Assembly (NCBI GenBank): GCA_945834475.1
Contig: CAMAHK010000013.1
Span: forward strand, 1 to 34,019
Length of the DNA: 34,019 nucleotides
Direction: 5' to 3'
Origin: an uncultured Verrucomicrobiota bacterium
GTDB lineage: Bacteria; Verrucomicrobiota; Kiritimatiellia; RFP12; UBA1067
The notes beneath the pieces are model-generated. The model saw nothing but the letters and a program-made list of their open reading frames with translations, was not told the DNA's origin and made no database searches. The position numbers were made by a program, and so were the translations under genes. The stretch's first letter is position 1. Every line of letters begins with the position of its first letter. Below, in pieces: positions 30,643 through 34,019 of this stretch.

Positions 30643-31593
30643 TCAGAGCGTTTTCGTAGTCCAGGCGAGATAGCCGCGGGACTTCATCTCCGCAGCGATT
30701 CGCACGGCCTCTGACTCGTCCGCTGCCCAGCCAAAGACGGTCGCGCCCGAACCCGTCATCTGAACTTCCCGCGCACCGGCCGCACGCAACGCGGCAAGTG
30801 CTTCGCCGATCTCGGGATAAAGCGCGACCGCCGGGGACTCGAGGTCGTTCTTCGGCGACGGATAGGTCGAGCGCACGAACGCCTTGAAGACCGCAGGTGT
30901 CGAGGAATGGACGCCGGGGTTGGCGAGGATGAGGAATCGTGAGGTTGAGGTTGGAGGTTGAGGTTGACGAAGGAGGGAGACTCTTTCGCCGCGGCCCTCC
31001 ATCAGAACAGGGGCGCGGTAGTGCTGGGCGAGGACGAGCGCGGGCACGTCGCTGCCGACTTGTGCGCCGAGGTCGGAGAGAGCTTCGGGCGTGTAACCGA
31101 GTTGCCAGAGGGCGTTGAGCGCGAGGAGAATCGCCGCGGCGTCGGCGCTACCGCCACCAAGACCGCCGCCCGCCGGGATGCGCTTGGTGACATGGATGCG
31201 GAGGCCTTTTTTATTGCGACGCGACAAGAGTGTCGCGTCCCCGTTGAGGTGGATGTCTTCGGCACTACGCGACAAGAGTGTCGCGTCCCCGTTGAGGTGG
31301 ATGTCTTCGGCACTACGCGACAAGAGTGTCGCGTCCCCGTTGAGCTGCGCGTCTTGATATCGGGGGCGAGGCACTCCTGCCTCGCCGCAAAGAACCTTTA
31401 CCGCCTTAACGATCAGGTCTCCTTCGCCGTAACCCGTATCCGTCGCGATGACGCCATCGTCCGTCTCCTCGATCTCAAGCGTATCGGCGAGGGCGATGGG
31501 CTGTACAATGGAACGAAGCGCGTGGTATCCATCCGCGCGCTTCCCCAGAACCTCTAGCGTGAGGTTGATCTTGGCGTAGGCCTCAATCTTCAT
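30643..31593 (-). CDS. ispE: 4-diphosphocytidyl-2-C-methyl-D-erythritol kinase with in-frame palindromic inserts
   Basis: GHMP kinase of the MEP isoprenoid pathway: phosphorylates CDP-ME at the 2-hydroxyl. MKIEAYAKINLTLEVLGKRA DGYH at the start carries the substrate lysine and ADGYH motifs. PAGGGLGGGSADAAAILLAL is the GHMP ATP loop, and MTGSGATVFGW the third motif. I start at M 31593, overlapping the acidic ORF's stop region; a longer frame begins with Thr/Arg-rich, unlikely sequence. The 316-aa length exceeds the usual about 285. The excess is mainly CGEAGVPRPRYQDA and repeated LNGDATLLSRSAEDIH units between the N-domain and the ATP loop, plus QPQPPTSTS later. Confidence 0.92.
   Translation of the reverse strand: MKIEAYAKINLTLEVLGKRADGYHALRSIVQPIALADTLEIEETDDGVIATDTGYGEGDLIVKAVKVLCGEAGVPRPRYQDAQLNGDATLLSRSAEDIHLNGDATLLSRSAEDIHLNGDATLLSRRNKKGLRIHVTKRIPAGGGLGGGSADAAAILLALNALWQLGYTPEALSDLGAQVGSDVPALVLAQHYRAPVLMEGRGERVSLLRQPQPPTSTSRFLILANPGVHSSTPAVFKAFVRSTYPSPKNDLESPAVALYPEIGEALAALRAAGAREVQMTGSGATVFGWAADESEAVRIAAEMKSRGYLAWTTKTL
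30941..30967 (-). repeat. GAGGTT/AACCTC microrepeat inside ispE
   Basis: Plus strand GAGGTTGAGGTT-GGAGGTTGAGGTTGA, about four and a half hexamers, coding in frame for QPQPPTSTS. It lies in a loop region of IspE after the ATP motif. Confidence 0.7.
31221..31344 (-). repeat. 48-bp tandem palindromic unit, 2.6 copies, in frame within ispE
   Basis: Copies begin at 31221, 31269 and 31317 (last one 28 bp). Each starts with the hairpin GCGACA-AGAG-TGTCGC followed by GTCCCCGTTGAG. The period of 16 codons keeps the ispE frame, giving LNGDATLLSRSAEDIH repeated. The two full copies are identical. Confidence 0.95.
31365..31386 (-). repeat. Second palindrome within ispE
   Basis: Perfect 9-bp stem GGCGAGGCA/TGCCTCGCC with loop CTCC, coding for GEAGVPR in ispE. 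It shares the GCGA...TCGC outer bases and 4-nt loop style with the 48-bp unit, 20 nt away. Confidence 0.8.
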
Positions 31594-31696
31594 CGTTCGA
31601 CTTCTCGTCGTCATCCTCGTCGTCATCGTCATCCGAATCGGGCTCCCCCTTCATCATCGAGGCCATTGCGTAAGCCATCACACTCGACGAAGCCAT
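31583..31696 (-). CDS. Small acidic ORF (37 aa) before ispE
   Basis: MASSSVMAYAMASMMKGEPD followed by an almost pure Asp/Glu run and KSNDED. Its TGA overlaps the ispE start region by 11 nt, suggesting coupling. The frame is open further upstream (SYEFVSRISADEIRSFG) back to the aminotransferase stop codon, in the aminotransferase frame, so a longer product with a non-ATG start or stop readthrough is possible. No ribosome-binding site is seen for the ATG. Not recognised. Confidence 0.4.
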   Translation of the reverse strand: MASSSVMAYAMASMMKGEPDSDDDDDEDDDEKSNDED

Positions 31697-31756: not shown

Positions 31757-33031
31757 TCAATTCTGGAGTTCCTTGATGGCGTTGTGGACGTTCGCGAAAA
31801 GCTTGTCGAGCTTTGCGAGCGGAATCGTCGAGAACGCGAGGCGGATGAGACCCGAGAGGACGATCGTCCCGGTCGAGTACTTCGCGATCAGGAGCTTGCG
31901 CACCTCTTCGGCGTCAACACCAAGCGGCTTCACGCACATGAAGTAGCCCGAATTGAACGGCATCGGCTCGAAGCTCTTCGCGTACTCGGGATGCTTCTTG
32001 AGGATCTTGCGGATCTCCATGTAGCGCTTCTTGAGGACGGCGTACTTCTCCTTCTTCTGCTTCGCGTAGTCGGGATCGGCATACGCGGCGATCGCGAGAT
32101 GCTGGCCGATCGACGTCACGTTCGAGAGAGCCGAACGCACGTTGCCCGCAGCCTTCGCCTCGAGTGCCTTGAGCTGCACCTCGGTCGCGCCCTTGAACGC
32201 GAACGAGATGAAGCCGACGCGGAGCCCCCAGACGTAGTCTTCCTTCGTCGTGCCGTCGAGCTTGACCGCGAGGACGTTCTCGTCGAGGTCGGAGAACTCC
32301 GCGAAGAGCGACTCGCCGTGAATGCCCTTCTCGTAGACGAGCCCGAAGTACGCGTCGTCGAGAACGACGACGATCTTCTTGCCCGCCTTCGCGACGGCCT
32401 TCACCGCCGCCACGATCTTCTTCGCATCCTCGACCGTGGCCGTGTAGCCGGTCGGGTTGTTCGGGAAGTTGAGAATAAGGATCTTCTTCGCGCCCGGCGC
32501 GAGAAGCGCCTCCTTCATAGCCGCCGCGTCAAAGCCGCCCTTCGCAAAGGTGTTGAACTTGCGGACCTTGCAGCCGACCGCCTCCTTGAAGATGAGCTCG
32601 TAGTTGTCCCAGAAGAAATCGGGGATGACAAGCTCGTCCTTCGCGTCGGCGAAGAGCTCGGCCGCGATCCGGAGGCCGTGCGTGAGCGCGTTCGTGACGA
32701 CGGGATTCGAAAAGAGCTTACCCTTGAGCGAGGGATTCTTCTTCACCTCGAGCTTCTTCCACTGCTCGCGGAGCGCCGGGAGACCGAAGCTACCCGCGTA
32801 GAGGAACGCCTTCTTGCCGAGCGGCACGTTCTTGGCGAATGCGTTGATCACGAGCGGGGAGCAGTCCTCCTCGAACGCCATCCCGATCGTCGCGTTGATG
32901 TCGCAACCCTTCGCCTCGCCTCCCTGACCGAGAATGCCGCCATAGGGGAAATAGAGACGCTTGCCTTCAGATGAAAGGAAACCCGCGGCTTCGCCGAGGG
33001 TTTTGTTAAGCTGTGTAGCCAGTGCGTTCAT
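31757..33031 (-). CDS. PLP-dependent aminotransferase, class I/II
   Basis: 424-aa fold-type I aminotransferase. LNFPNNPTGY has N192 (cofactor ring contact) and P193; D225 and Y228 in VVVLDDAYFGLVY contact the PLP pyridine; K263 in DGTTKEDYVWGLRVG is the likely Schiff-base lysine, and R271 (GLRVGF) the phosphate contact. The opening region RLYFPYGGILGQGGEAKGCD and ATIGMAFEE is a distinctive subgroup feature; substrate unknown. The ATG lies 11 nt after a TATAAT box, so the leader is only about 5 nt. It is followed by the acidic ORF and ispE on the same strand. Confidence 0.87.
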   Translation of the reverse strand: MNALATQLNKTLGEAAGFLSSEGKRLYFPYGGILGQGGEAKGCDINATIGMAFEEDCSPLVINAFAKNVPLGKKAFLYAGSFGLPALREQWKKLEVKKNPSLKGKLFSNPVVTNALTHGLRIAAELFADAKDELVIPDFFWDNYELIFKEAVGCKVRKFNTFAKGGFDAAAMKEALLAPGAKKILILNFPNNPTGYTATVEDAKKIVAAVKAVAKAGKKIVVVLDDAYFGLVYEKGIHGESLFAEFSDLDENVLAVKLDGTTKEDYVWGLRVGFISFAFKGATEVQLKALEAKAAGNVRSALSNVTSIGQHLAIAAYADPDYAKQKKEKYAVLKKRYMEIRKILKKHPEYAKSFEPMPFNSGYFMCVKPLGVDAEEVRKLLIAKYSTGTIVLSGLIRLAFSTIPLAKLDKLFANVHNAIKELQN

Positions 33032-33042
33032 AATTGCGTTGT

Positions 33043-33051
33043 ATTATATCA
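33043..33051 (-). promoter_or_regulatory. Extended -10 TGATATAAT for the aminotransferase, near-leaderless
   Basis: The hexamer TATAAT (33048-33043) is preceded by TGA, which is also the stop codon of the upstream methyltransferase. The predicted start (about 33036) is five nt before the ATG. Confidence 0.6.
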
Positions 33052-34019
33052 TTTTTTCACGGCCGAAACGAGCCAGTGCGGCATCGGGGGCGGGGCGACT
33101 TGGGTTTCGCCCGGTTCAAAGCCCGCCTCACGCATCCAGTCCTTGAGTTCCGCGTCGGAAAAAACCCAGCCGTTCGTCGTCGTCAGCGCCATGTTGAGCG
33201 CGAAAAGCGCCGAGAACTTCGGGGCCGTATGCGTCTCGTCCGTCATCATGTCGAGGACGATCACGCGTCCACCCGGCTTGAGCGCCCGGTGTGCCCGCTT
33301 GAGGATGTCGACGATCTGCTCGGACGATTCCTGATGGAGCGCCCCAAAGATCGTGACGACATCGTACGCCTCCGACTCGTATTCGTCGGTATGGTAGTCG
33401 CCCGCCCGGCAGGCGATGCGGCCCGTAAGACCGAATTGCGCGACATAGTTCGCGGCCTCGGCCGAGATCGCCGGCAGGTCGACGGTCGTCACCACGAGCG
33501 ACGGATTCGCCTGGCACAGCAAAATCGCATACGCGGCCGGTCCGCCGGCGAGGTCAAGGAGCTTCGTACCGCGGTGCGTCTCGCCCGCGGCGGGTAAAAG
33601 CCCTTTGCCGTCCAACGCCGCGGGCGAGACGCACCGCGGTACGGGGGAGAGATCCAGCATCGGAACGATCGACTTGCCGATGCCCATCGCACGTCCGAAC
33701 ATCGACGCGGCGAAGGCCTTCGTGCGCGCGGCGTCCTCGCCGAGATGGATCTCGGGCTTCTCAACCGGCTTCCCAGTCTGCGCGAACTCCGCGAGCTTGC
33801 CCCACGCCGGATACACGTCACGGTTGTAGCGAATCGCCTTCGTGAGATCGGCCGGACCGCCCGGAATCAGCGCAAGCCGCGACGCGGGCGTGTTCGCGTA
33901 TACGCCGTCAGGGGACTTGGTGAGCAGTCCTTCGGCAACGCAGGCGTCGAGGAGAAGGCGGAGTCCGCGGGGCACCGTACCGCGGTGCGTCTCGCCCGCG
34001 GCGGGTAAAAGCCCTTTGC
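33049..34019 (-). CDS. SAM-dependent O-methyltransferase, partial, with two in-frame palindromes
   Basis: Plant-type/hydroxyneurosporene-like O-methyltransferase. The winged-helix dimerisation part (GLRLLLDACVAEGLLTKSPD) precedes the Rossmann domain: SAM motif LLDLAGGPAAYAILL, acidic loop TTVDLPA, GDYHTDEYESEAYDVVTIFG, LKPGGRVIVLDMM, and the final WLVSAVKK. The substrate is unknown. The frame is open to the window end, and the 5' part is missing; a GTG at 33975 is only an internal candidate. The peptide GLLPAAGETHRGT occurs twice, at the window edge and just before the SAM motif, because two copies of a palindromic element lie in the gene. Confidence 0.82.
   Translation of the reverse strand, partial: KGLLPAAGETHRGTVPRGLRLLLDACVAEGLLTKSPDGVYANTPASRLALIPGGPADLTKAIRYNRDVYPAWGKLAEFAQTGKPVEKPEIHLGEDAARTKAFAASMFGRAMGIGKSIVPMLDLSPVPRCVSPAALDGKGLLPAAGETHRGTKLLDLAGGPAAYAILLCQANPSLVVTTVDLPAISAEAANYVAQFGLTGRIACRAGDYHTDEYESEAYDVVTIFGALHQESSEQIVDILKRAHRALKPGGRVIVLDMMTDETHTAPKFSALFALNMALTTTNGWVFSDAELKDWMREAGFEPGETQVAPPPMPHWLVSAVKK
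33566..33642. repeat. 77-bp perfect palindromic element inside the methyltransferase
   Basis: 27-bp arms (33566-33592 and 33616-33642), beginning GTACCGCGGTGCGTCTCGCC, are exact reverse complements around a 23-nt loop. In the gene's frame it codes for PRCVSPAALDGKGLLPAAGE then THRGT. Confidence 0.95.
33977..34019. repeat. Second copy of the 77-bp palindrome, cut by the window end
   Basis: 43 nt identical to 33566-33608 and in the same orientation, also in the methyltransferase frame (GLLPAAGETHRGT). The other arm would lie beyond the window. Confidence 0.9.

Follow-up and report, generated by a model that had tools for sequence, protein, structure and literature searches.

The window, i.e., the whole stretch of 34,019 nucleotides that we analysed, comes from the genome of an uncultured gut bacterium of the Verrucomicrobiota (2.57 Mb in 134 contigs, 85.5% complete). 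One of its ORFs is ispE, identified by a profile search with a score exceeding the cut-off of the model (TIGR00154, E=8.7e-54). This gene carries a tandem array, the top-scoring of the four arrays found by TRF in the window, and four hairpins (Table 1). A first-pass annotation made from the sequence had described 2.6 identical 48-bp units, each with a GCGACA-AGAG-TGTCGC hairpin, and both the repeat and three such hairpins were recovered. It had also described a second hairpin at 20 nt. This is hairpin 4, which starts 20 nt beyond the end of the array and 30 nt beyond the third stem. That hairpin was listed as a separate item, but it belongs to the family of the array: its stem differs from that of the other three (type A), and the core CA-RGAG-TG is identical on the opposite strand. 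As had been claimed, the reading frame is kept. The insert codes for residues 83-139 of IspE, with hairpins 1 to 4 encoding residues 132-139, 116-122, 100-106 and 83-90, respectively, all upstream of the GGGLGGGS segment at residue 155.

Table 1. Positions in the window of ispE, its repeat elements and the copies of a second palindrome family.
Feature	Position	Strand	Source
ispE, 329 aa, carries the insert at residues 83-139	30643..31632	-	ORF list and profile matches
Outer flank GCGGAGGCCTTTTTTATTGC, G-rich then T-rich, similar to the family's loose flank motif	31198..31217	+	
REP hairpin 1, type A, 9-bp stem GACGCGACA-AGAG-TGTCGCGTC	31218..31239	+	hairpin catalogue
Tandem array, 48-bp unit x 2.6, 100% identical	31219..31344	.	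TRF
REP hairpin 2, type A, 8-bp stem	31267..31286	+	hairpin catalogue
REP hairpin 3, type A, 8-bp stem	31315..31334	+	hairpin catalogue
REP hairpin 4, GGCGAGGCACTCCTGCCTCGCC, type B, GGCGAGGCA-GGAG-TGCCTCGCC, faces the A hairpins as pair partner	31365..31386	-	
Opposite outer flank, of the same kind, GGCGGTAAAGGTTCTTTGC (minus strand)	31387..31405	-	
Second-family inverted pair, in frame in a methyltransferase-like ORF, peptide PVPRCVSPAALDGKGLLPAAGETHRGT	33564..33644	.	
Second-family copy at the window edge	33975..34003	.	

The insert is missing from all 34 relatives whose IspE could be aligned, which rules it out as a conserved part of the protein; such conservation is what the first-pass annotation had named as speaking against its reading. 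The alignment included 29 members of the genus (those of the 36 matching relatives for which the locus was returned) and five named MAGs (from six further loci, Kiritimatiellae or Verrucomicrobia by title; the Bacillota locus L100 was excluded). In two cases, L069/L095 and L083/L097, a pair seems to represent a single strain, leaving about 32 independent relatives. In the genus search, 37 of the 39 genomes, our own included, had an ispE match. Except for one weak match (G028:C81, 120-164), the segments of the relatives reached no further than query residue 89 or started no earlier than residue 136. By our reading of the alignment, the loop is around 45-58 residues longer than in relatives, in which loop length itself varies; this natural variation is bounded by KA-KVL on one side and by the strand preceding KRIP on the other. 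An AlphaFold model of IspE, built with six sequences, had a mean pLDDT of 63 and a pTM of 0.61. Its best match in the PDB was the E. coli IspE (1oj4), and residues 83-140 had pLDDT values below 50. We found no second ispE in the genome (85.5% complete), and the four other matches to the query were short and only hit the insert peptide. The enlarged IspE therefore appears to be the sole copy.

Known RNAs do not account for the element: between 30500 and 34019 Rfam returned five matches, all to miRNA or C/D-box snoRNA models and below the gathering score, none of them on the ispE array and three on the second-family pair (33564-33643). An origin in plasmids or viruses found no support: 31100-31500 had no plasmid match, and a 24-mer had no exact match in viral contigs. 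Elsewhere in ispE, at 30940-30976, there is a run of recurrent TGAGGT/AGGTTG hexamers; such runs are also present at C2:10705, C6:18273, C45:2696 and other sites, several of them with a 13-bp period (GAGGTTGAGGTTG).

Within the window, GCGACANNNNTGTCGC had three sites when up to one mismatch was allowed, all of them exact (31221, 31269 and 31317), and three matches were also reached by 2 of 100 shuffles of the window at this setting. A chance repeat is excluded at the scale of the genome, where the palindrome GCGACANGARTGTCGC has 114 exact sites, GCGACANNNNTGTCGC has 115, and the reversed controls have none. The genome search proposed by the first-pass annotation thus gave more than 100 dispersed copies, and with them facing pairs resembling REPINs, a RAYT-like gene flanked by the family, and frequent placement inside genes. 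Among 57 related genomes, four had one match each and the rest had none. The identical units in ispE and this species-restricted distribution are compatible with the recent or ongoing expansion that had been suggested. Among open-access papers, we found none on this palindrome family in Kiritimatiellae.

We catalogued the hairpins in 306,469 bases around the listed sites and the Y1 transposase genes, plus the window. The catalogue has 147 hairpins sharing the core CA-RGAR-TG (by stem, 104 are GCGACA, 40 GAGGCA and 3 GAGACA), and is incomplete, with 104 type-A hairpins of about 114. The three outermost base pairs, which the search did not require, were all paired in 126 of the 147 hairpins (mean 67 and maximum 85 in 2000 shuffles). 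A typical copy consists of a G-rich/T-rich flank, GAC-GCGACARGAGTGTCGC-GTC and CCCGTTG, the stem ends being GACG...CGTC by symmetry. The GTAG tag was found within 12 nt of one hairpin in 147, on either side; the conserved flank is instead CCCG / CCCCGTTG, with the CCCG tail in 112 of the 147. The hairpins form 96 clusters, i.e., 53 singles, 30 facing pairs (+-), 8 back-to-back pairs (-+) and 5 longer groups, which correspond to 95 places because the assembly contains one locus two times, as C73:78 and as C109:5388. Facing pairs of the 22-bp hairpin unit span 53-99 bp. Their spacers are mostly unique, unlike those of a unit copied whole, and far less conserved than the hairpins. Several back-to-back pairs (C2:83571, C64:14952, C67:4163/4480/5017 and C29:15313) have in common an imperfect palindromic linker, GGAATAAGGA..TTTCGTCCTTATTCC.

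To place the clusters relative to genes we made coding calls with a home-made 3-periodic Markov model trained on stretches of the same genome, scoring each flank independently. Judged by spanning open frames, 53 of the 96 clusters are intragenic and in frame; 18 more are close to a gene end or have weak calls, and 25 are in non-coding DNA. Random sites in the same stretches fall inside genes at the same frequency (325/600, 54%; p=0.91). Hence, the family does not avoid genes. The intragenic clusters include 24 of the 30 facing pairs, 3 of the 8 back-to-back pairs and 24 of the 53 singles, and occur in both orientations and several reading frames. Both flanks were coding on one strand in 44 clusters. 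In 42 of these the two flanks were in the same frame (p=4e-18 against one third; the exceptions are C15:19104 and C31:11710), and 40 were in phase and open throughout (p=2e-15), the two others having a stop in the element (C53:10013 and C80:10237). A constant insert length is not supported as the reason, since the lengths of the intragenic facing pairs fall in all classes modulo 3 (12/8/4), so that some compensation outside the pairs must bring the net insert to whole codons. If insertion were random and frameshifts were then lost, we estimate from the random-site control that 28% of clusters would remain inside genes (53% with gene ends), to be compared with the 55% and 74% that we saw. This excess would need insertion biased towards multiples of three, repair of the frame, or faster loss of intergenic copies.

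The interrupted genes encode recognisable proteins. We scanned 39 of the 47 interrupted ORFs, besides ispE, and 38 had a Pfam family. They include GatB, alanine racemase, MutS, PriA, methionyl-tRNA synthetase, the large subunit of carbamoyl-phosphate synthase and ClpX, as well as the KsgA family, exonuclease VII, an Mfd-like protein, RecD2, RNase HII and RibD (names follow our reading of the Pfam domains; GatB and alanine racemase also match NCBIfam). The predicted peptides of the inserts include NGDATLLSR and SAEDIHLNGDATLLSR. As in IspE, relatives do not have the inserts. None of the 17 usable GatB relatives, 71-94% identical segment by segment, has the insert, which is a net gain of 26 codons; an 18th, L189, was unalignable in this part. 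Since the flanking bases differ between species, no target duplication is readable. The insert in ClpX, also absent from 17 aligned relatives, sits in a linker that varies among them, so that its exact borders are unreadable. That in CarB is absent from the nearest relative (G003, the one aligned), and the match to a second CarB-like gene of the same genome, on C100, skips the insert stretch. In our genome a loose motif, ggnGGanGnTTCTTnTTGC, often precedes the hairpin copies. The G-rich part of this motif exists in the gatB of relatives without the insert, which suggests a target preference.

Tandem growth is not specific to ispE. All 12 arrays of the family found by TRF have a period divisible by three (48, 51, 42, 51, 33, 18 in five arrays, 42 and 30), the array at the end of C25 and that at the start of C35, probably a single one, both being counted. 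The period is divisible by three in 40 of the 79 other arrays with a period of at least 12. The motif flagged 15 arrays, of which three were dropped by eye as non-REP (C3, 12 bp; C8, 16 bp; C13:31604, 12 bp); had they been kept, 14 of 15 would be divisible by three, with C8 as the sole exception. Several arrays have thus grown under a frame constraint, that of ispE among them.

Repeats in metagenomes can be misplaced or collapsed, and this genome is fragmented. At the junction of contigs C25 and C35 there is an 18-bp array, so array lengths in the assembly need caution, and the copy number of the ispE array could have been misjudged. The same 1.77 kb is found on two contigs (C73:1-1770 and the end of C109), each breaking near a REP tandem array. 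Yet, dozens of in-frame insertions in recognisable genes, 42 of 44 clusters with coding flanks true to the frame, and array periods in multiples of three are unlike random misjoining, and we see a very slim chance that the elements are artefacts of the assembly. The same regularities bear on bypass elements, hairpins that are cut out of the mRNA or passed over by ribosomes, so that the frame would be irrelevant. Compact hairpins scattered in coding sequences, two of the 44 with a stop inside, are what such elements would look like. Skipping would require neither that 40 of 44 clusters be in phase and open nor that arrays grow by whole codons, and we find this explanation scarcely credible.

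Selection might have favoured the inserts, either as mRNA hairpins that tune translation or decay, or as linkers that improve the protein. In line with this, the RNA of the ispE insert is predicted to fold into a structure more stable than those of all 200 shuffles (z=-3.6), stem pairing is kept while the sequence changes, and the hairpins are conserved well above the spacers. Recognition of the hairpin by a transposase would, however, account for stem pairing just as well. The hosts are unrelated enzymes, interrupted in both orientations and in several frames, the aligned relatives do without the inserts, and placement matches that of random sites. We therefore regard a role of the inserts as functional modules under positive selection as improbable.

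The genome has ten matches to PF01797 (Y1_Tnp), seven of them above the cut-off. One, a transposase gene on C17 (E=4.6e-8), is flanked on both sides by A and B hairpins of the family. The protein matches the NCBIfam model REP_Tyr_transpos (NF047646) with E=2.3e-16 and 60 bits, below the cut-off of 80. On both sides of this gene, tandem arrays of 15 bp (GGGAGCGTCAGCAAC-like) lie between the A and B hairpins (locus L102, C17:31390-31531 and 32375-32426); the upstream one is open in the frame of the transposase. The transposase has a match in 12 of the 39 genomes of the genus, our own included. We compared it with its closest homologues, from G008 (45% identity) and G061 (46%), and with a second gene of the same genome, on C1 (31%). 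The MPNHxH segment and the Tyr and Asn of the YIRxN segment are invariant in the four proteins. The RAYT of G008 has a different palindrome on both sides, and that of G061 has yet another one, repeated six times at steps of 64-80 bp on one side only. The former palindrome occurs 21 times in G008, once in G060 and in no other genome searched; the latter occurs 85 times in G061, twice in G009 and nowhere else. This distribution of palindromes beside related RAYTs is the pattern of cognate RAYT-REP pairs. On this sequence evidence, the family of the ispE insert is most likely mobilised by the RAYT-like HUH/tyrosine transposase of C17.

The genome contains a second palindrome, CCGTACCGCGGTGCGTC(C)TCGCCCGCGGCG. 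This family (CCGTACCGCGGTGCGTCTCGCCCGCGGCG) has 59 hairpins in stretches that were not selected for it, and is densest near the RAYT-like gene on C1 (14140-14748), whose PF01797 score is just below the cut-off. In the window, one of its pairs lies in frame in an ORF on the minus strand (33049-33975) that is methyltransferase-like by our reading. Of 49 clusters, 24 are inside genes (one of them counted twice because of the C73/C109 doubling), 7 near gene ends, 4 at edges and 14 in non-coding DNA, half of the latter at the C1 locus. The share inside genes does not differ from that of random sites (p=0.55).

The palindromes of the two relatives behave differently. Inside genes we found 2 of the 18 clusters of G008 and 1 of the 9 of G061, compared with 162/400 and 117/400 random sites in the same loci, this control being run per species since the coding model was trained on our own genome. 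The palindromes of the relatives avoid genes (p=0.012), and their 3/27 differ from the 53 of 96 clusters of our genome (p=5e-5). For G008 we counted by hand, treating L247/L248 and L251/L252 as one locus each and excluding that of G060. For G061, which has 85 palindromes, 13 loci were returned; they gave the nine clusters, eight of them independent given the overlap of L258 and L260. Using 3/26 leaves the contrast unchanged. Because two families of different sequence behave alike, the intragenic habit may be a property of the host.

Our explanation of the insert, which we hold to be very probable as a whole, is the following. Facing palindromes of types A and B, a REP/REPIN-type pair, would have entered IspE at the loop of variable length that precedes the strand G-L-R-I-H-V, and the type-A half would later have been duplicated in tandem in steps of 48 bp. 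The family would move as single-stranded hairpins through the C17 transposase; insertions that break the frame would be lost through selection, and those of whole codons in tolerant loops would persist. The repeats would then grow or shrink in multiples of three by slippage or recombination. Our data show the family and its distribution, the in-frame placement in many genes, the linkage to a RAYT, the absence from relatives and the array periods in multiples of three. We infer three elements of this scheme: the movement driven by the RAYT, the neutrality of the encoded peptides, and the slippage behind tandem growth. The sub-threshold NF047646 score, the lack of a GTAG tag, the unique spacers, the facing-pair lengths spread over all classes modulo 3, the two clusters with flanks in different frames, the two with a stop and the one-sided palindromes of the G061 RAYT count against it, as do the home-made coding model and the fragmented assembly.

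The closest known systems are the REPs and REPINs with their RAYTs. In the REPtrons of Pseudomonas fluorescens SBW25, with GTAG repeats, short dispersed palindromes likewise form inverted doublets and tandem arrays flanking a HUH/tyrosine transposase (as described in the parts of PMC3116915 and PMC3733652 used here). TnpA-REP recognises single-stranded hairpins, with GTAG having a role in the choice of the cleavage site, according to the consulted portions of PMC8266576. Our family differs in lacking the GTAG tag, in its variable pair spacers and in its many intragenic clusters; in SBW25, only 14 of the 16-mers (1,067 occurrences) are given as overlapping genes (PMC3116915, relevant section). 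The parts of PMC3733652 on REP location describe most REPs as intergenic, those inside genes being most numerous in Opitutus terrae (GTAG repeats) and Rickettsia conorii (CGTC repeats). O. terrae, also from the Verrucomicrobia, is the closest published precedent, with single, paired and grouped REPs in named genes that include DNA repair functions (same sections). In our genome, in addition, neither of two families shows any avoidance of genes, and arrays lengthen by multiples of three; we also used a random-placement control, of which there is none in sections 15 and 16 of PMC3733652. Intragenic REPs as such are already published, and Rickettsia palindromic elements (RPEs) are the classical in-frame case (PMC10969869, PMC2229807).

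The first-pass annotation had likened the insert to RPEs with tandem growth. The habit of inserting in frame in conserved protein genes, as reported for RPEs in the passages used of PMC10969869 and PMC2229807, is indeed common to both, and so the family might consist of true RPEs or close kin acquired horizontally. However, it is made of 22-bp hairpins in pairs and tandems, and RPEs are described as units of 105-146 bp with a long stem-loop, in another phylum and with no linked transposase reported in those passages. The CGTC-tagged repeats matching RPE-4 and RPE-6 have a CGTC end tag, a CCA tail and no transposase (PMC3733652, section on these repeats), whereas our family has the CCCG tail and RAYT linkage and falls outside that class. 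Species-restricted palindromes beside related RAYTs of the genus also suggest local evolution, and we consider kinship with RPEs highly unlikely. The family is better placed among the REPs and REPINs. PARCEL repeats are likewise palindromic, coding, in tandem and variable in number, but are described in the available part of PMC2996958 as amphipathic domains of 25 residues in ORFs without assigned function, and not as small inserts in housekeeping enzymes. On sequence grounds, we read the family as a RAYT-associated REP/REPIN with an RPE-like habit and without the GTAG tag.

A broader proposal is that the coding genome is here the normal habitat of RAYT-driven REPINs. Two families would enter genes at the background rate and those of the relatives would stay mostly outside, which would make the habit a property of the host or of codon-neutral insertion and not of one element, with in-frame linkers that keep expanding by multiples of three nucleotides. 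We put this forward tentatively, as somewhat doubtful. REPs were named for being extragenic, and here there are dozens of in-frame insertions in housekeeping genes together with a probable transposase. The entry of selfish palindromes into proteins thus becomes testable in a possibly active system, for which the two relatives with mostly extragenic palindromes are a natural comparison. For annotation, the warning is that marker genes of this group, such as gatB, the methionyl-tRNA synthetase gene, clpX and ispE, can hold mobile inserts.
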